64,000 nucleotides of DNA from a virus, in the IMG/VR virus record IMGVR_UViG_3300027714_000014, positions 1 through 64,000 of that record. One strand, given 5' to 3'. The translations under genes were made by a program, and so were the position numbers. Below are positions 12,345 to 47,023 of this stretch, piece by piece. A model generated the notes under the pieces. That model did no database searches. It was not told where the DNA came from and saw only the letters and a list, made by a program, of their open reading frames with translations. The number at the start of each line of letters is the position of its first letter. Position 1 is the stretch's first letter.

Positions 12345-13202
12345 TTACTTAATTTTTAGTTTTTCACAAAGTTCTTCTTTTGTAATCATATTTATATTAC
12401 TATCCCAACGACACAGACGGTCTATATTGATTTGACTATCTGTCCAATAAAAAATTTTGTCAGGATACATTTCGAAAACTTCTTTAATTTGATTTAACCA
12501 GTTTATAGGGTTAAACCCCTTAGCTTCTTTTGGTAAATAATTCTTTGTACCTTTATACATATTATTTAGCGGCTTGTCATATGAAGATAAATCAAAGCCT
12601 AAAATATATATCTCTTCTGCATCAGATTGACACGCTAAAGATAGAGCAGTGTTTCCAGTTGCCCACCCCTCATGACCTTCAACTGAGCTAACCTGATCTC
12701 TAAATTCATTTACATATGTAATCCAAATTCCAACATCCTTTTCCATTTTGATTTTTACATCTTTAGCGTCTAAATTGGGAAATTGTTTTATAGTAGATTC
12801 TATCTTTTCTGATAATGAGGCTGGGTCTTTTCCCCCTATGACACATTGATTTGTTCTGATCAGGTTGCGATGAATGTAAGATTCTGGTATGTCAAAGCCC
12901 ATTAACATACCGTCAGCGACCTCAGCAGGAACTACATTCCAGTTTGCAAAAAACGCATTATGTGTGTTACCATATTCGGTATCTTCATCACACCAACCAG
13001 ATTCATATATTTCTTGCTGCATTGCATAGTCCATTGCAACTAGATTATGTACACAATGAGGGCCATAACGATATATTGCATTACATCCCCATGTAGTAAC
13101 TTCATCATCCCTTACCGTAGGAGTCTGTGTAGGATGGTCTGAACACTTTGGTATAAACCACGACCTAGATTCACCGTTTCCTATAACAAGAGCCTTTTTC
13201 AC
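12345..13202 (-). CDS. Rossmann-like protein, DUF115/glycosyltransferase-like
   Basis: 285 residues. The N-terminal KKALVIGNGESRSW is a glycine-rich first strand-loop, followed by TWGCNAIYRYGPHC and VAMDYAMQQEIYESG; later GWATGNTALSLAC and EEIYILGFDLSSYD. This arrangement recalls DUF115/MptE-like and sialyltransferase-like proteins that read a nucleotide-linked substrate. No exact family can be named. It overlaps the upstream 2OG oxygenase gene by 4 nt (ATGA type), so the two are probably co-translated, perhaps acting on one surface or nucleic-acid target. Confidence 0.55.
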   Translation of the reverse strand: MKKALVIGNGESRSWFIPKCSDHPTQTPTVRDDEVTTWGCNAIYRYGPHCVHNLVAMDYAMQQEIYESGWCDEDTEYGNTHNAFFANWNVVPAEVADGMLMGFDIPESYIHRNLIRTNQCVIGGKDPASLSEKIESTIKQFPNLDAKDVKIKMEKDVGIWITYVNEFRDQVSSVEGHEGWATGNTALSLACQSDAEEIYILGFDLSSYDKPLNNMYKGTKNYLPKEAKGFNPINWLNQIKEVFEMYPDKIFYWTDSQINIDRLCRWDSNINMITKEELCEKLKIK

Positions 13203-13903
13203 TTGCTCATCCTACGGTCAATCTTACCAGATGCACCATCGGTGTTTACCGTGTAACTTACAGACGCATTATCCAACCACCGTTCATTCTTCACAAAGTC
13301 AAGCTTATATGCGTCACGCTCTGACAGGTTTGCAAGTACGTTAAACGCAAGACTGATCCTTGATTCATTAGTGGTGTTTTGACCAAACCCATGAAACAGA
13401 TATGAGTTAAACATAATCAATGATCCCTCAGTACATGGCATACCAATCTTGTTAGTAAAGTTTGCATTTGCTTTACTGTAGTGTTTTCTCAATGAGAAAA
13501 ATGGATCATTATTTGTTGGCATCTTTTCAAATACCAAAGGTGGATGTTCTGGTAGTGACTTGACATAATACACACCACTGATAATAGAGTTACCATGATT
13601 GTGCATACTCTGAGAACTGCCTGGGTCTGCACTATTTAACCAGCTCTCATGAATCCAAAAATCACGATGATCTAGAGTCATTACATTGTCCAGATAGTCC
13701 TTAGTACACTCATAGAACCAATCTTTAAGATCAGAAAGACCTTCATGGTCAATAATGTTTGGAGCATCCTTGAACTGTGTTGTATCGGGATTTGCAACTG
13801 CTTGTTGATTAAATTCAAACTCATCCATAGAAGGGACTTCTGGTGGATTAGGATTTTGGTATATCTTCAATACACCAGCTGGGAAAATAGGAATTTCAGT
13901 CAT
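13199..13903 (-). CDS. 2OG-Fe(II) oxygenase, TIGR02466-like
   Basis: 234 residues. Signature ESWLNSADPGSSQSMHNHGN (first metal His at 101 or 103) leads into SIISGVYYVKS. A second His lies in FNSYLFHGFGQN (171), and Arg182 in SRISLAFNVL is the likely 2-oxoglutarate anchor. The start PIFPAGVLKIYQNP is nearly the same as in the gene at 44281-44934, so these two are paralogues. Iron ligands follow the family pattern; substrate unknown. Overlaps thyX by 8 nt and the 12345 gene by 4 nt. Confidence 0.8.
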   Translation of the reverse strand: MTEIPIFPAGVLKIYQNPNPPEVPSMDEFEFNQQAVANPDTTQFKDAPNIIDHEGLSDLKDWFYECTKDYLDNVMTLDHRDFWIHESWLNSADPGSSQSMHNHGNSIISGVYYVKSLPEHPPLVFEKMPTNNDPFFSLRKHYSKANANFTNKIGMPCTEGSLIMFNSYLFHGFGQNTTNESRISLAFNVLANLSERDAYKLDFVKNERWLDNASVSYTVNTDGASGKIDRRMSK

Positions 13904-14588: not shown

Positions 14589-14663
14589 TGGTGCCGGTGG
14601 TAAGAATCGAACTCACAACCTATTGCTTACAAAGCAATTGCTCTACCGTTGAGCTACACCGGC
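14589..14663 (-). tRNA. tRNA-Thr (anticodon TGT)
   Basis: Full cloverleaf: acceptor GCCGGTG/CACCGGC, D-stem GCTC/GAGC, anticodon arm ATTGC-TTTGTAA-GCAAT, T-arm with TTCGATT loop, and an encoded CCA end. Decodes ACA, a codon favoured in AT-rich genomes. Lies between the coiled-coil gene and thyX. Confidence 0.95.
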
Positions 14664-15358: not shown

Positions 15359-15619
15359 TTACGCTGTACGTAGTGCCTGATAGCCAGCAGCAACAACTGA
15401 TCGTTTAGGTGTACCGATACGATACTTCATATACGTCTGACCGTCAAAAGACGATACACGCTTGTTCAAATAGATCGCAAGACCTGACAGGCGTAGCTTA
15501 CTGATAACAGCACGAACATTCTTAACACCATAACGTGATGTAATCTGTTTAGCGGTTAGTTCTGCACCATTAACAAGTGCTTTTTCGACCTTATCGGTCT
15601 GGGTAGTGGTAGTAGTCAT
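15359..15619 (-). CDS. Winged-helix/HTH DNA-binding protein
   Basis: 86 residues. Thr-rich start, then KVEKALVNGAELTAKQITSR, YGVKNVRAVISKLRLSGLAI and YLNKRVSSFDGQTYMKYRIG: helix-turn-helix plus a beta wing, as in small winged-helix regulators of marine T4-like phages. Probably a transcription regulator; target unknown. Preceded by a leader of about 140 nt with several hairpins and its own promoter. Confidence 0.7.
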   Translation of the reverse strand: MTTTTTQTDKVEKALVNGAELTAKQITSRYGVKNVRAVISKLRLSGLAIYLNKRVSSFDGQTYMKYRIGTPKRSVVAAGYQALRTA

Positions 15620-15760
15620 TTAAATGTTTTCCTTAACATTGCAAATAGGCTGAAAGTATTCCAACCTTTAAAATGGTAGTTTTTAGTCCTATAAAGAGAA
15701 CTACCAAACTCATTAAGTGTCGATATAGCAATAGGTTGCCGTCACTTAAATTCGTATTAT
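15620..15760 (-). promoter_or_regulatory. Structured 5' leader of the winged-helix gene
   Basis: Between the promoter and ATG there is no ORF but at least two stem-loops: TAAGTG...CACTTA (enclosing GCAA-CCTA-TTGC) and a 7-bp GGTAGTT...AACTACC stem. Other leaders in this window are much shorter. Could be an RNA switch, an autoregulatory operator or a small RNA. Confidence 0.5.
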
Positions 15761-15765
15761 AACAA

Positions 15766-15794
15766 AGTATAACATAGTAATATCTATTTGTCAA
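15766..15794 (-). promoter_or_regulatory. Early sigma70-like promoter
   Basis: Minus strand TTGACA (15794-15789), 17-bp spacer, TATACT (15771-15766), upstream of the structured leader. Confidence 0.8.
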
Positions 15795-15812
15795 CACCTT
15801 TTTTCAATATTA

Positions 15813-16484
15813 TTACTCAACACGGAGAGTTCCACCCATTGGTATAATATTTCTAGGTTTCTTAGAAAAGTTTTTATGAATGTAGCAAGAAGTGGTTTCA
15901 GTATCTACATGTATTGGCTTGAAGCCATGAAAGTGAATTGGCAGTAAATCTGATTTATCCAAGAGCTCTTTTGCCCGTGGATTGTTATCACAATTATCTA
16001 GTATAATCATGCCGCCATCTGCAAGACTTTTTAAAGAGGGTAATACGCACTTGGTACGGAAATGACCATCAATAATAATCACATCAAAATTCATTTTGTA
16101 CTTATAGATAGATTTTGTGTACAAGCTCTGATCTTCCTCAACACAAATTTTGTGTTTATTGTCAGGATTTACTTTGTCTGCCCACTCTTTATTCTTTTCA
16201 ACACCATACATATTACACTTCATGTTATCCCACCAAACGGTGCTATAGCCACAACCAAACTCAAAAACATTAGAATTTTCCCAGTTCATACTGCGAAGAT
16301 ATTCATAGCATGGATATGTATACAGTGGCATAATTTCTTGATAACCACTTACGGGAACATTGTTTCTTGAGGATTCTAAAAATCCATAATCATTTCTAAG
16401 CTTATGCATCAAATATGTTAAATGTAATTCTTCTATTGGCAGTTCAACATCTGCGATAATAACTTGTCTCTCGTACATAACCAA
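15813..16484 (-). CDS. Class I SAM-dependent methyltransferase-like protein
   Basis: 223 residues. SAM-binding motif I is VFEFGCGYST (73-82). An acidic strand end YGVEKNKEW is motif II, FDVIIIDGHFRTKCV is motif IV, and GGMIILDNCD follows. Overall like FkbM/class I methyltransferases of phages and surface-glycan clusters. Substrate unknown. It is transcribed just downstream of the tmRNA coding piece. ATG 16484 or the next in-frame ATG could be used. Confidence 0.7.
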   Translation of the reverse strand: MVMYERQVIIADVELPIEELHLTYLMHKLRNDYGFLESSRNNVPVSGYQEIMPLYTYPCYEYLRSMNWENSNVFEFGCGYSTVWWDNMKCNMYGVEKNKEWADKVNPDNKHKICVEEDQSLYTKSIYKYKMNFDVIIIDGHFRTKCVLPSLKSLADGGMIILDNCDNNPRAKELLDKSDLLPIHFHGFKPIHVDTETTSCYIHKNFSKKPRNIIPMGGTLRVE

Positions 16485-16500
16485 TCCTCATTATAATAAA

Positions 16501-16670
16501 GTGGTGGGTATTCTGTTGCAAGGAACCCACCGAACCCCGAAAGATTACGCAGCTAGTGCGTAATCCCCATATGCAATATTATCGTTTGCATTTACTAATT
16601 TGACCAATAACGCAGTCATCCGACAATTCTCCACTCATCCGTCCCTGCCTGTCGATCCTGTTTCGCCCCC
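16501..16670 (-). ncRNA. ssrA: tmRNA coding piece (permuted two-piece ssrA)
   Basis: Starts GGGGGCGAAACAGGATCGAC, the 5' half of a tRNA-like domain. A pseudoknot-prone segment and TTAGTAAAT lead to the resume codon GCA at 16589-16587. The tag reads ANDNIAYGDYALAA and ends in TAA (16547-16545); ALAA is the usual protease signal. After the stop comes a hairpin GGTGGGT...ACCCACC. No 3' acceptor half follows; instead it lies upstream (16830-16893), the order of permuted alphaproteobacterial tmRNA. GGGGGCG pairs with CGCCTCC of the acceptor piece. The RNA would rescue stalled ribosomes and tag their products. Confidence 0.9.
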
Positions 16671-16671
16671 A

Positions 16672-16752
16672 TCAAAAAAAGACTAGGTATATTAAACCCG
16701 CTAGTAGGGTAATGTCAGCACATATACTCCAAACGATATATGCTTTAAACAT
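16672..16752 (-). CDS. 26-residue membrane micropeptide inside the tmRNA locus
   Basis: MFKAYIVWSICADITLLAG then LIYLVFF: one transmembrane helix. GAGAGG lies upstream of ATG 16752. The TGA stop ends 1 nt before the first G of the tmRNA coding piece. It lies wholly in the intervening segment that must be removed in a permuted tmRNA. Similar to other single-pass micropeptides in this genome; function unknown. Confidence 0.5.
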   Translation of the reverse strand: MFKAYIVWSICADITLLAGLIYLVFF

Positions 16753-16759
16753 CCACTTA

Positions 16760-16816
16760 CTAACCTCTCGTACTAAGGGGGTCTTCATCAGAATCCCCTA
16801 TCATTACTTTTGGCAT
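16760..16816 (-). CDS. 18-residue acidic ORF inside the tmRNA locus
   Basis: MPKVMIGDSDEDPLSTRG, with AAAAGGAG 8 nt before ATG 16816. That ribosome-binding site starts directly after the acceptor piece CCA. It precedes the membrane micropeptide by 7 nt. Either a tiny peptide or a leader for it; an ancestral single frame broken by a shift is also possible. Confidence 0.4.
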   Translation of the reverse strand: MPKVMIGDSDEDPLSTRG

Positions 16817-16829
16817 ACTAGTCTCCTTT

Positions 16830-16893
16830 TGGTGGAGGCGTTGGGTACTGCCCCCAAGTCCAGTTCAGTTCTCAATTCGTATCATCAAATTGT
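16830..16893 (-). ncRNA. ssrA: tmRNA acceptor piece (permuted two-piece ssrA)
   Basis: Minus strand segment ending TTGGG-GGCAGTA-CCCAA-CGCCTCC-ACCA: a T-stem/loop, the 3' acceptor strand complementary (with one G-U) to GGGGGCG of the coding piece, a discriminator A and CCA. The 5' end is set by the promoter, whose start site is predicted near 16893. The T-loop GGCAGTA replaces the canonical TTCRANT and is identical to that in the tRNA-Gly-like element at 15226-15300. Confidence 0.85.
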
Positions 16894-16899
16894 ACTCTA

Positions 16900-16928
16900 T
16901 TTATACCATGTGAGGAATCATTTGTCAA
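16900..16928 (-). promoter_or_regulatory. tmRNA promoter with overlapping late motif
   Basis: TTGACA (16928-16923), 17-bp spacer, TATAAA (16905-16900). The -10 extends to TATAAATA (16905-16898), a perfect T4 late promoter, so the tmRNA could be made both early and late. Confidence 0.75.
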
Positions 16929-17608
16929 GACCCAAATGGAATAAAACTTTGAATAGAATATCTATATCTTTCATCAAATTCAGCATATGTTCCATGAAAA
17001 TTTTTTCCCTCATAAATTATCAAGGTGTTAAATGTGCTTGGTGCAATATGATATAATTCCCAATCTTCATCTCCCTCAAAATTTTGCCAAGGAACAATAA
17101 TACTTTTTTTAAGCTTGCTCATAACTATTCCACCAACTTTACTTTTTGGTAAGATTAAATTATCATTATTATAATGCCCTTTGTATCTGTAAAATGCTGT
17201 GCCTCCAACATAGTCACACAGCCATATATTACAAACTATTTTAAGATTGTCAACATGGGGCATCCATGAATTTTTCCAGACTTGCATATTCTTTGATAAT
17301 ATCAAAGAAGTGCTTAATGATTTAGTCACATCAACGTTTACTCCTAATTGAGGAAAAAGGGATTGATATTTTTTTAATATAGGAACTAAATCCATAGGAG
17401 TAAAATTCTGTCGTGCGCCAGGAGTATATACATGACCATCCAATGCTGGCCATTCTCTTAAAATTGATATTGTGTCTAAGGGATTTTTCAGAAAATCATC
17501 AATAGAATAATACTTTAAGTCACCAATTTCATTTTTTGTAATTTTTAAATTATCATTTGGCTCTAAAGTTTTGTATAGTTTATCACGATTTATAAAATTA
17601 AAATTCAA
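16925..17608 (-). CDS. 2OG-Fe(II) oxygenase-like protein (DUF6445-like)
   Basis: 227 residues. WMPHVDNLKIVCNIWLCDYV has the H-x-D metal pair and is followed by GGTAFYRYKGHYNND. A distal His lies in LIIYEGKNFHGTYAEF and an Arg in RYRYSIQSFIPF. This order fits the DUF6445 branch of phytanoyl-CoA/2OG dioxygenase-like proteins. Substrate unknown. It overlaps the end of the upstream exported-protein gene by 4 nt. The tmRNA promoter -35 box lies over its stop codon, so there is no spare space. Confidence 0.7.
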   Translation of the reverse strand: MNFNFINRDKLYKTLEPNDNLKITKNEIGDLKYYSIDDFLKNPLDTISILREWPALDGHVYTPGARQNFTPMDLVPILKKYQSLFPQLGVNVDVTKSLSTSLILSKNMQVWKNSWMPHVDNLKIVCNIWLCDYVGGTAFYRYKGHYNNDNLILPKSKVGGIVMSKLKKSIIVPWQNFEGDEDWELYHIAPSTFNTLIIYEGKNFHGTYAEFDERYRYSIQSFIPFGS

Positions 17609-19504: not shown

Positions 19505-20173
19505 TCATTCTCCTTTTGGTGCTGGGGTAAGACTATGTTCAGTAACAGGTATAATACTTTTTTCCCAATCTACTACTAAATTTCCAACAGCCATAATTCT
19601 TTCATGTTCACATTTCTGTTCTGGAACAGAATGATATAACCATGCTGGCCACAAAACAAGTTGACTACCCTTTGGTTTGACTTGCGTAAATCCGCCGCCT
19701 CCAGATGGATCATTACGATAGTATGCATCTGGAAAAACTAGTGGAGCACATTCCTCACAACCTCTAACACAATAGGTAAAACTCCAAGTGTGGGGCCAGT
19801 GTTGGTGTGATTTAGTTGTTTGTCCCTTAGTATATATTAATCCCCATGAATCTGCAACCTTATAGTCATATTGTCTAGGATCACCAGATTCATTTGTTGC
19901 ATTTGCAAGAGGCACAGTCTTAGCAAGACTAATTACCAACTCACCTAATTTCTTAAACGATTCATATTCTTTGTCCATATCCCATCGTGTCATATGACAC
20001 TTAGCAGCAGTCTTATGATTCAACCTATCACCAGATTCTCGAATATCATTTTCAAGTAGGTCATTAAAAGCATCAATTCTAGTTCCCTGTAAATCTTTAA
20101 CCTTGACAGGAGACTTCTGTTTAAATTCTGGCCAACCCTCTTGGGTAGGCTTTATGTAAATATCACTCAACAC
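19505..20173 (-). CDS. 2OG-Fe(II) oxygenase-like protein
   Basis: About 222 residues from GTG 20173 (VLSDIYIKPTQEGWPEF); the start overlaps the phoH end and is uncertain, since there is no nearby ATG. Contains KSHQHWPHTWSFTYCVRG with candidate metal His residues, a Gly run GGGGF, SQLVLWPAWLYHSVPEQ with the distal His, and ERIMAVGNLVVDW with the Arg. This is the double-stranded beta-helix pattern of the phage 2OG family. Substrate unknown. Confidence 0.7.
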   Translation of the reverse strand: MLSDIYIKPTQEGWPEFKQKSPVKVKDLQGTRIDAFNDLLENDIRESGDRLNHKTAAKCHMTRWDMDKEYESFKKLGELVISLAKTVPLANATNESGDPRQYDYKVADSWGLIYTKGQTTKSHQHWPHTWSFTYCVRGCEECAPLVFPDAYYRNDPSGGGGFTQVKPKGSQLVLWPAWLYHSVPEQKCEHERIMAVGNLVVDWEKSIIPVTEHSLTPAPKGE

Positions 20174-20876
20174 CAATTCCCATCTTAATCTTGTTAATAA
20201 GATAGCTACGAACAAAACCAGACCTAACGATGTCACCAATGTTAAATTCTGTACAGTTGAACTCTTCCATTTCCTCTAGAATGCGTAGGAAATCATGAAG
20301 TCCATTTTTCTCATTTTGTCTTTGTAAATCTGATTGGCCAAAATCACCACAGAAGACAATTTTAGAATCTTGTCCTACCCTAGTGATAATCGTATCCAAT
20401 TCATGGAAGTTTAAGTTCTGGCACTCATCAACAATAATGATACTGTTGTCAAATGTCAATCCCCGTAGAAATGAGGTTGAAAGAAAATATAGAGAACCTT
20501 GTCCCTTGAGTCGGTCATATAGATTATTGAATGCTTGATCACTGGGCATCTGAAACATGAAACGAACCATGTTCTGATATGGCACCTGATACAATGCAGC
20601 CTTATCTTCCTCATCACCTGGCAGAAATCCAATCTCTCTTGTAGGGATTAATGATCTAACTAGAATAACCTTTTCTGCTTTATTCTTTAAATCTAACACC
20701 TCTTGTAATGCAAGATATAAAGAAATAAATGTCTTACCAGTTCCAGCAGCACCAAATAGAAATTGGTTCTTACCTTTTTTCCAAGTATCAAAAATAATCT
20801 TTTGGTTGTCGGTAATAGGCTTTACATCAACAAGAGTCGAACTGCTGATTTCTTTTGTTTGTTTTTTAGAGGCCAT
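20163..20876 (-). CDS. phoH: PhoH-like ATPase
   Basis: 237 residues. Walker A GAAGTGKT (42-49), Walker B IIIVDECQN, a RSLIPTREIGFLPG segment and the FCGDFGQSD motif typical of PhoH. Common in marine phages; a predicted RNA/DNA helicase-like ATPase whose true role in infection is unsettled. AAAGGA-type spacing to the upstream gene is nil: it starts right at the end of the 20877 gene. Confidence 0.92.
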   Translation of the reverse strand: MASKKQTKEISSSTLVDVKPITDNQKIIFDTWKKGKNQFLFGAAGTGKTFISLYLALQEVLDLKNKAEKVILVRSLIPTREIGFLPGDEEDKAALYQVPYQNMVRFMFQMPSDQAFNNLYDRLKGQGSLYFLSTSFLRGLTFDNSIIIVDECQNLNFHELDTIITRVGQDSKIVFCGDFGQSDLQRQNEKNGLHDFLRILEEMEEFNCTEFNIGDIVRSGFVRSYLINKIKMGIGVE

Positions 20877-27593: not shown

Positions 27594-27962
27594 TTAACTT
27601 CTCCTCATTGTTGCAACTTCTATTGCTTGTTCTTGGTTGCGAATAGGTACTGCATTAGATTTATGCATCTGGGCAATCCCTATAATTTCAGTTCCCGTAT
27701 AAACCATCTCTTCTTTCTTTGCCATAGAAGAGTCATATACGATCTTTGGTTTGGTGCTCTCGACAGGACTCGAACCTGTGACCCACGGTTTAGAAGACCG
27801 TTGCTCTAATCCAGCTGAGCTACGAGAGCCAATTCCCATCTTCTTCAAAAACTTTTTATGATCACGCTCGGCAGCAAGTAGACTTTGAGTCTTCTTGCGT
27901 ACCTTACGTTTCTTAGTGTTCGTTGTAGAGTAGAACACCGGCAATAAATGCATACCACTCAT
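27594..27962 (-). CDS. ORF spanning tRNA-Arg; possibly two small genes
   Basis: 122 codons. The N-terminal part MSGMHLLPVFYSTTNTKKRK and QSLLAAERDHKKFLKKMG, and the C-terminal part VYTGTEIIGIAQMHKSNAVP, both look like conserved marine-phage segments. The middle (SRSSAGLEQRSSKPWVTGSS) is the translation of a tRNA-Arg gene on the same strand. Either the ORF is one protein with a tRNA inserted in frame, or two proteins (27830-27962 region and 27594-27725, the latter from ATG 27725) flank the tRNA. The start overlaps the upstream stop as TAATG. Confidence 0.55.
   Translation of the reverse strand: MSGMHLLPVFYSTTNTKKRKVRKKTQSLLAAERDHKKFLKKMGIGSRSSAGLEQRSSKPWVTGSSPVESTKPKIVYDSSMAKKEEMVYTGTEIIGIAQMHKSNAVPIRNQEQAIEVATMRRS
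27752..27829 (-). tRNA. tRNA-Arg (anticodon TCT)
   Basis: Full cloverleaf: acceptor GCTCTCG/CGAGAGC, D-stem GCTC/GAGC, anticodon arm ACGGT-CTTCTAA-ACCGT, T-arm ACAGG-TTCGAGT-CCTGT, encoded CCA. Reads AGA, a codon common in AT-rich phages and rarer in many hosts. It is embedded in an open reading frame on the same strand. Confidence 0.95.
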
Positions 27963-45793: not shown

Positions 45794-47023
45794 TTAAGCG
45801 GCTGCAACAGTTACACCATTTAATACAAATGCAGAACCAGTAGATGTTCCTGCCTGACTGTAGAAAGCAATGTCACTAGTACGAGCTTCTGCAAGAACAC
45901 CCTCATTCTCGTCAGCCGAAGAACCATCAGTTGCATCGAATACAATTCGATCTTCTCCAGTGTCCGTAGTACCTTGTTCCTGTTGACCGATATAAACCGT
46001 TGTATCTCCACCCGTGAAAGGTATGCCGGAAACATCAGTTGCACCATCAACACCTTCAAGTATGAAGTCAATACTCTCGCCTTGAACACTATCGTGTCCA
46101 TCAGCAGAGAAGTTTAGAATAACATCGTTTGCAACAATAATTGCATCACTAACTGTAACACTTGTTTGTGATGCAACAGCAGTAACGGTAAGTGATCCGT
46201 CTTGTGACAAAGCAGTACTTCCTTGAGCATCTGTCAATGGTGTTGCATTAGCTTGTCCATAAACTTTCATACCCACTGCAATTGTACCAGAGTTACCATC
46301 TAGAACCAAAGTAGTTGTTGCTGTTGTAATCGCACCATTTACCGTTGCGACAATAGCAGCAACAGAGTCGAGAACAATTCTACCAGCAGGAGCAGCATTA
46401 GTACCACCTTCTTGTCTCATTGCCAGTACTGATACACCATCTTCTTCAGACATATCAGCACTACCATCGAATACGATACCCGCTTCACCAGCAGTTACAC
46501 CGTCACCAACACCAGAACCATTCAGTCCAATAAATCCAGTTGCAGCATTTGTTTGTGCAGTACCTCTGAATGTAATCTCGTTGGTTCCAGAACCACTAAA
46601 GTACATTGCAGCAATTGTGCTGTCCTCTACCATGTCTGTTACACCCAAACGGGACAACAGAATGTATGCCTTGTTTGTAATAGTTTGGTTGGCAGAAAAT
46701 GCAGCAGAAGTCATATCAACTGCCTCATCGAATGTTATCCGAACATCGAATGTTCCTACATTACCAACCGCACCTGTATCAAAGTCGATACCAACAACTG
46801 TTGCAGTACCACGAATGGCAGCAAGGTTACGAATACAAACCAAAACTTCAGGCTGTGCAGCTTTATTATCGTTACCTGATGCACCTGTGCCTGGGGTCAA
46901 TCCCCAACCACCGGCGACTGCAATAGCGTCTTCTCTCGCTCCCATTGACCCAGATGCATTTGAATCAACTGGTAGGAACTTAGGCCGACTCTCAGCAGAT
47001 GTCGAACTTCCCCATAAACCCAT
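45794..47023 (-). CDS. Virion structural protein, Gly/Ala/Thr-rich
   Basis: 409 residues. MGLWGSSTSAESRPKFLPVD and AREDAIAVAGGWGLTPGTGA resemble abundant structural proteins of marine T4-like phages. Then repeated beta segments with short acidic loops (IVFDGSADMSEEDGVSVLA; IVLDSVAAIVATVNGAITTA; SVQGESIDFILEGVDGATDV). Probably head decoration or a fibre-like protein. AAAGGAGAAA precedes the ATG. A palindrome ATATTCTTGCAAGAATA lies in the leader. Confidence 0.72.
   Translation of the reverse strand: MGLWGSSTSAESRPKFLPVDSNASGSMGAREDAIAVAGGWGLTPGTGASGNDNKAAQPEVLVCIRNLAAIRGTATVVGIDFDTGAVGNVGTFDVRITFDEAVDMTSAAFSANQTITNKAYILLSRLGVTDMVEDSTIAAMYFSGSGTNEITFRGTAQTNAATGFIGLNGSGVGDGVTAGEAGIVFDGSADMSEEDGVSVLAMRQEGGTNAAPAGRIVLDSVAAIVATVNGAITTATTTLVLDGNSGTIAVGMKVYGQANATPLTDAQGSTALSQDGSLTVTAVASQTSVTVSDAIIVANDVILNFSADGHDSVQGESIDFILEGVDGATDVSGIPFTGGDTTVYIGQQEQGTTDTGEDRIVFDATDGSSADENEGVLAEARTSDIAFYSQAGTSTGSAFVLNGVTVAAA

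Follow-up and report, generated by a model that had tools for sequence, protein, structure and literature searches.

In permuted tmRNAs, the spacer that separates the two pieces is commonly taken to be cut out and lost. A viral fragment of 65,459 bp (IMG/VR record IMGVR_UViG_3300027714_000014), of which positions 1 to 64,000 were analyzed here (the window, 64,000 nt), carries a phage tmRNA gene of this kind with a long intervening segment, and the question arises what such a segment is for. The results given below make it quite likely that small protein genes use the spacer of this permuted alpha-type tmRNA gene as their slot.

Anatomy and identity of the tmRNA gene

A circularly permuted tmRNA gene of the alphaproteobacterial type was found at 16893-16503 on the minus strand, together with a predicted promoter:

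16900..16928, minus strand: promoter-like TTGACA (16928-16923), 17-nt spacer and TATAAA (16905-16900); predicted from a strict-pattern match
16830..16893, minus strand: acceptor (tRNA-like 3') piece, ending CGCCTCC-ACCA with the last A at 16830; 5' end approximate (ARAGORN, Rfam)
16503..16670, minus strand: coding (mRNA-like) piece, its first bases GGGGGCGAAACAGGATCGAC starting at 16670; 3' end approximate (ARAGORN, Rfam)
16545..16589, minus strand: tag reading frame, ANDNIAYGDYALAA followed by TAA (ARAGORN)

The gene order is permuted, the acceptor piece with its encoded CCA lying 5' of the coding piece. Across the two pieces, CGCCUCC and GGGGGCG pair at all seven positions, one of them as U-G. 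Infernal searches gave 125.7 bits for alpha_tmRNA (RF01849, E 7e-34, 16932-16500) and 111 bits for tmRNA_permuted (RF04321), both well above the Rfam gathering cut-offs of 50 and 47, respectively. Among 19 phage tmRNAs, the cross-piece acceptor stem was 100% paired, and one pair had changed from G-C to A-U, with both sides altered, in seven of the 19. Gene order, Rfam scores and acceptor-stem covariation thus support the permuted two-piece tmRNA of the alpha type that a preliminary description had proposed for this phage; the piece ends, the tag with its TAA and the seven-base pairing given there were all present, and the pairing proved to be conserved in related phages. The strict promoter-like pattern also precedes the tmRNA in 47 of 53 relatives with the same nested ORFs (see below).

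The modelled non-acceptor stems of the window tmRNA match the covariance model poorly, and its 125.7 bits compare with 210 and 249 bits for two bacterial alpha tmRNAs. Both observations would suit a decaying tmRNA copy that is kept only as a carrier of small genes, a reading to which we give hardly any credence: the tag frame is intact and ends in ALAA and a stop codon, the CCA is intact, the acceptor stem has undergone a compensatory change, a promoter-like site is present, and dozens of tmRNAs from phage relatives have intact tag frames as well.

No phage SmpB was found in the 65,459-bp record. The strand that carries the tmRNA also has phage genes for tRNA-Thr (TGT, 14589-14663) and tRNA-Arg (TCT, 27752-27829). 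In the phage permuted tmRNAs L108, L122, L070 and L083, the tag is unusually long, with 29 residues (ANDNALSNVTFVDFSAPVTAVNEDFALAA).

The phage and its host

T4-like proteins encoded in the record comprise a family B DNA polymerase, SSB, thymidylate synthase and an exonuclease, and the one large-protein search that yielded matches gave Melnitz and HTVC008M as the nearest isolates. Melnitz, which infects OM43, and HTVC008M, which infects SAR11, each carry a permuted alpha-type tmRNA, and the phage is a T4-like relative of the two. The Melnitz tmRNA has been published along with a phage-wide survey reporting 53 two-piece tmRNAs in phages (PMC9004378); for this reason, and because HTVC008M has one too, the tmRNA alone is not new. 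Melnitz combines an alpha-type tmRNA with a gammaproteobacterial host (PMC9004378). The alpha type therefore does not fix the host, and the link to an alphaproteobacterial host drawn in the preliminary description is unsafe. A 23-nt 5' motif gave exact matches in two alphaproteobacterial genomes, which is insufficient to name a host. Two 2OG-Fe(II) oxygenase genes of the same PHROG family flank the tmRNA at 13199-13903 and 19505-20239.

Coding sequence between the two tmRNA pieces

The expectation that ORF-based annotation would leave this region blank was misleading, as the segment between the pieces is conserved coding sequence. It holds two overlapping reading frames, ORF A and ORF B:

16671..16829, minus strand: intervening segment of 159 nt between the tmRNA pieces, holding ORF A and ORF B (sequence, relatives)
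16823..16826, minus strand: Shine-Dalgarno sequence GGAG of ORF A, within the 5' strand of a closing helix (sequence; spacing kept in 53 of 53)
16760..16816, minus strand: ORF A, MPKVMIGDSDEDPLSTRG and stop codon, 18 aa, probable leader in a different frame from ORF B, whose start it overlaps (sequence; 53 nested relatives)
16795..16799, minus strand: ribosome-binding-like AGGGG of ORF B, 5' of its ATG, also found 5' of B in the relatives compared
16672..16788, minus strand: ORF B, MKTPLVREVSKWMFKAYIVWSICADITLLAGLIYLVFF and stop codon, 38 aa, predicted single-span membrane protein; its UGA lies one base 5' of the coding piece (pN/pS, alignment, hydropathy)

The segment is not an assembly error, because independent contigs (L103 and four others) carry an identical copy. 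Scanning IMG/VR with the coding-piece motif yielded at least 120 stretches, and spacer length ranged from 29 to 247 nt in the 77 that were parsed. A pattern scan of IMG/VR for ORF B gave at least 122 loci; about 88-91 of these have tmRNA pieces on one or both sides and the rest are without. Spacers of the window group start with AAAGGAGA, one with TAAGGAGA, and end with the UGA one base 5' of the coding piece. Their length is 159 nt in 36 of 53 distinct sequences and 157, 160, 165, 177, 183, 186 or 192 nt in the others, spacer length changes being nearly all multiples of three.

Across the 53 distinct nested segments, which are kin and, like the 42 sequences evaluated below, do not amount to as many independent trials, pN/pS of ORF B was 0.24, compared with 0.98 and 2.45 in the shifted frames. 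Variability was concentrated at third codon positions. The hydropathy of the window ORF B reaches 2.1 over 19 residues. In ORF A, it is the start and the frame that are fixed. The start codon follows GGAG by 6 nt in the window and by 6 or 7 nt in all 53 distinct segments, always in the same frame relative to B (A-to-B start distance 1 modulo 3); in the 157- or 160-nt spacers the spacing of the ORF A start shifts in compensation. The part of ORF A that is free of B contained stops in none of 42 sequences, whereas the other two frames had stops in 36 and 26 of the 42. Since its residues are not conserved (pN/pS 0.87), ORF A may be only a leader, and these sequence patterns make it probable that it is a translated leader feeding B, not a conserved peptide.

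By the same patterns, the intervening segment of the window is protein-coding. An ordinary phage permuted tmRNA, with a long spacer that is untranslated and conserved as RNA structure only, would explain that the segment is strongly structured with covarying ends and that annotators give no gene in the Melnitz spacer. It would not explain third-position variability and a low pN/pS confined to one frame, length changes in threes with starts and ribosome-binding sites kept, or the existence of homologues outside any tmRNA for B and for two further spacer proteins described below (a 69-73-aa protein and DUF6356), and we consider it very unlikely.

ORF B has no PHROG match and no characterised homologue, and tblastn detected none in sequenced phage isolates, a search in which short hydrophobic queries may be filtered. 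A match to DUF2542 (Pfam PF10808) was rejected at 15.3 bits, under the curated cut-off of 25. If a guess is ventured, and we hold it weakly, the protein might have a membrane-acting function in infection, such as lysis timing or superinfection exclusion. In open-licence papers, a literature search turned up nothing on protein genes lying within a permuted-tmRNA spacer; the original publications on two-piece tmRNA (Keiler 2000; Sharkady and Williams 2004) may already have mentioned helices or ORFs in such spacers.

A helix that closes the spacer

The ends of the intervening segment form a second helix beside the acceptor stem:

16818..16830, minus strand: 5' strand of the closing helix, AAAAGGAGACUAG, including the ribosome-binding site of ORF A (folding, pairing statistics, covariation)
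16674..16686, minus strand: 3' strand of the closing helix, CUAGUCUUUUUUU, which is also the last codons of ORF B (folding, pairing statistics, covariation)

In the window, AAAAGGAGACUAG/CUAGUCUUUUUUU folds continuously with the acceptor stem, and a helix at this fixed offset closes phage spacers. In 54 distinct phage spacers with other contents, 93.9% of the cells at ten fixed helix positions pair, versus 67.7% (SD 1.3) after shuffling of partners and 29-59% after sliding. This shuffle test is fairer than an analysis of 19 examples chosen for having the helix, in which nine of the ten helix pairs were altered on both sides. Within the A-B class alone the partner shuffle is weak (11.44 of 12 pairs versus 11.27); the ends of this class hardly vary, so the case for the helix rests on the other spacer classes. 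Throughout the A-B class, the ribosome-binding site of ORF A is built into the helix.

An intrinsic terminator at the T run between the pieces was also considered. None was found on the minus strand, where the T run corresponds to a helix strand and Phe-Phe codons.

Free-standing copies and exchange of the nested genes

Copies of the A-B pair occur outside tmRNAs too, and in these A often lies exactly 28 nt 5' of B. In L163, L130, L068, L127 and L158 the pair is followed by a promoter-like site and then by a complete tmRNA whose spacer is shorter; in L221, L225 and L190 it lies upstream of a tmRNA with no promoter-like site between the two. Free-standing copies indicate that B is maintained apart from the tmRNA and has moved into or out of the spacer. 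In the latter three loci B ends in FWG, as would be expected had the coding piece been lost from a nested copy, which is a further point for the decay reading discussed above. In the near genome-sized record G004 (148 kb), a free-standing A-B pair (L157) is followed by a membrane-protein gene, and a separate compact permuted tmRNA is located elsewhere, at 46518-46715.

Three further cargo types were recognized. A membrane protein of 69-73 aa is nested in at least six loci of a family of at least 68, the other members being mostly free-standing. A DUF6356 protein, above the Pfam cut-off, is nested in the inspected loci of a set of at least 13, and a free-standing relative occurs in phage C48C1. 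In two loci of this class (L303, L306), the final A of the acceptor CCA and the TG that follows it make up an in-frame ATG further upstream; the ORF terminates within the coding piece and hence overlaps both tmRNA pieces. At least 12 loci have the Melnitz-type ORF nested in them; in the Melnitz group it runs 42 nt into the coding piece to its stop codon, and elsewhere it stops short of that piece. Six sequences gave it pN/pS of 0.75 in frame, compared with 1.8 and 2.1 in the other frames, a weak sign of selection that makes it the least secure of the four cargo types. About 20 of the 77 tmRNAs parsed among the at least 120 motif-scan stretches hold one of the four.

A quick method was used to build a tree from the short sequences of 115 phage tmRNAs, with the spacer left out. 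As found, this tree has at least 20 changes of cargo type, and its starred branches by themselves require at least seven for A-B. The tmRNAs of L018 and L203 are 95% identical, and the former holds DUF6356 and the latter A-B; 97% identity is seen between the tmRNAs of L028, with a Melnitz-type ORF, and L092, with a spacer of 54 nt. Cargo is thus swapped between closely similar phage tmRNAs. The spacer of the permuted tmRNA would then be a gene slot used by several unrelated small phage genes, most of them for membrane proteins, which are easily missed because they are located inside an RNA gene.

Sharing and exchange of one slot by unrelated genes, and the life of the A-B pair apart from the tmRNA, are also what plain genome compaction would produce, in which the spacer is merely transcribed early and strongly and the tmRNA and its cargo are functionally unlinked. 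The constant placement of the ORF A ribosome-binding site in the closing helix of the A-B class speaks against such independence, as does the frequent position of non-nested A-B still beside a tmRNA, neither being decisive, and we put compaction, the more sober view of the locus, at about an even chance. It is compatible with the gene-slot explanation, as it alters the mechanism only and not the anatomy.

Proposed expression of the nested genes

For the gene slot, the following order of events is proposed. One promoter would give a precursor of acceptor piece, intervening segment and coding piece, the two pieces would fold together via the acceptor stem, and the second helix beside it would close the segment. 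RNase P and 3' processing would then free the two mature pieces, and these, with SmpB assumed to come from the host, would rescue and tag stalled ribosomes. Whether on the precursor or on the segment once released, ribosomes would initiate at the AAAGGAG that directly follows the CCA, translating leader ORF A and then, presumably by coupling, ORF B, whose 38-aa product would insert into the membrane.

Because the closing helix holds the ribosome-binding site of ORF A, helix closing and translation start should exclude each other. The nested cassette might accordingly act as a switch that makes A/B translation and tmRNA maturation mutually exclusive: the helix would hide the ribosome-binding site and could slow RNase P. 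Leader-RCCA pairing that lengthens the acceptor stem inhibits RNase P (PMC9433436), and this finding and the overlap of ribosome-binding site and helix fit a switch, which we nevertheless regard as rather unlikely. If it were true, ribosome availability during infection would set the amounts of rescue RNA versus membrane protein. Under this scheme the liberated segment might in turn be acted on by its own tmRNA, because the stop codon of ORF B is only one base short of the cleavage point. A coupling of rescue and protein production in infection becomes directly testable, as Melnitz on OM43 is already in culture.

Comparison with known systems

Like the phage of the window, Melnitz (MZ577097; PMC9004378) is a T4-like marine phage with a permuted tmRNA of the alpha type; in both, late-transcription and thymidylate synthase genes lie downstream of the tmRNA, and its spacer holds an ORF with a ribosome-binding site. 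The Melnitz ORF, of 54 aa, is unannotated (tmRNA at L002, 5988-6440), the Melnitz record having no CDS in the tmRNA spacer. In contrast to the window, the nested ORF of Melnitz is an unrelated one that extends 42 nt into the coding piece, and a glutamine riboswitch (52.8 bits) follows the tmRNA. No such riboswitch was found by the window tmRNA in 15600-17100 at E values up to 5, and assignment to the riboswitch-controlled Melnitz type was rejected. The tmRNA of HTVC008M (KC465899) is likewise permuted and of the alpha type, and its spacer forms a covarying helix; it differs in that this spacer has 49 nt without a listed ORF and the tag is ANFNEYALAA.

Bacterial alpha_tmRNA (RF01849) shares gene order, motifs, acceptor stem and tag type with the window. 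Unlike the window, most of the parsed bacterial spacers have 10-50 nt without an ORF, and only one has a long closing helix (L320 was left out of this parse). Among about 150 bacterial matches listed, nested ORFs were sought in two long-spacer outliers, and the permuted-tmRNA spacers of these alphaproteobacterial genomes (L326 in G142 and L327 in G151; 115 and 165 nt) had no convincing ORF.

A protein gene inside a tmRNA gene is also known from tmRNA genes with a group I intron and homing endonuclease genes (PMC11915505). There, the protein gene sits in a self-splicing intron in the T-loop region, whereas the tmRNA gene of the window has no intron and the processing spacer of the permuted gene takes that place. 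The cargo differs as well, the intron-containing tmRNA genes carrying homing endonucleases (PMC11915505) and the phage spacers carrying small, mostly membrane proteins.
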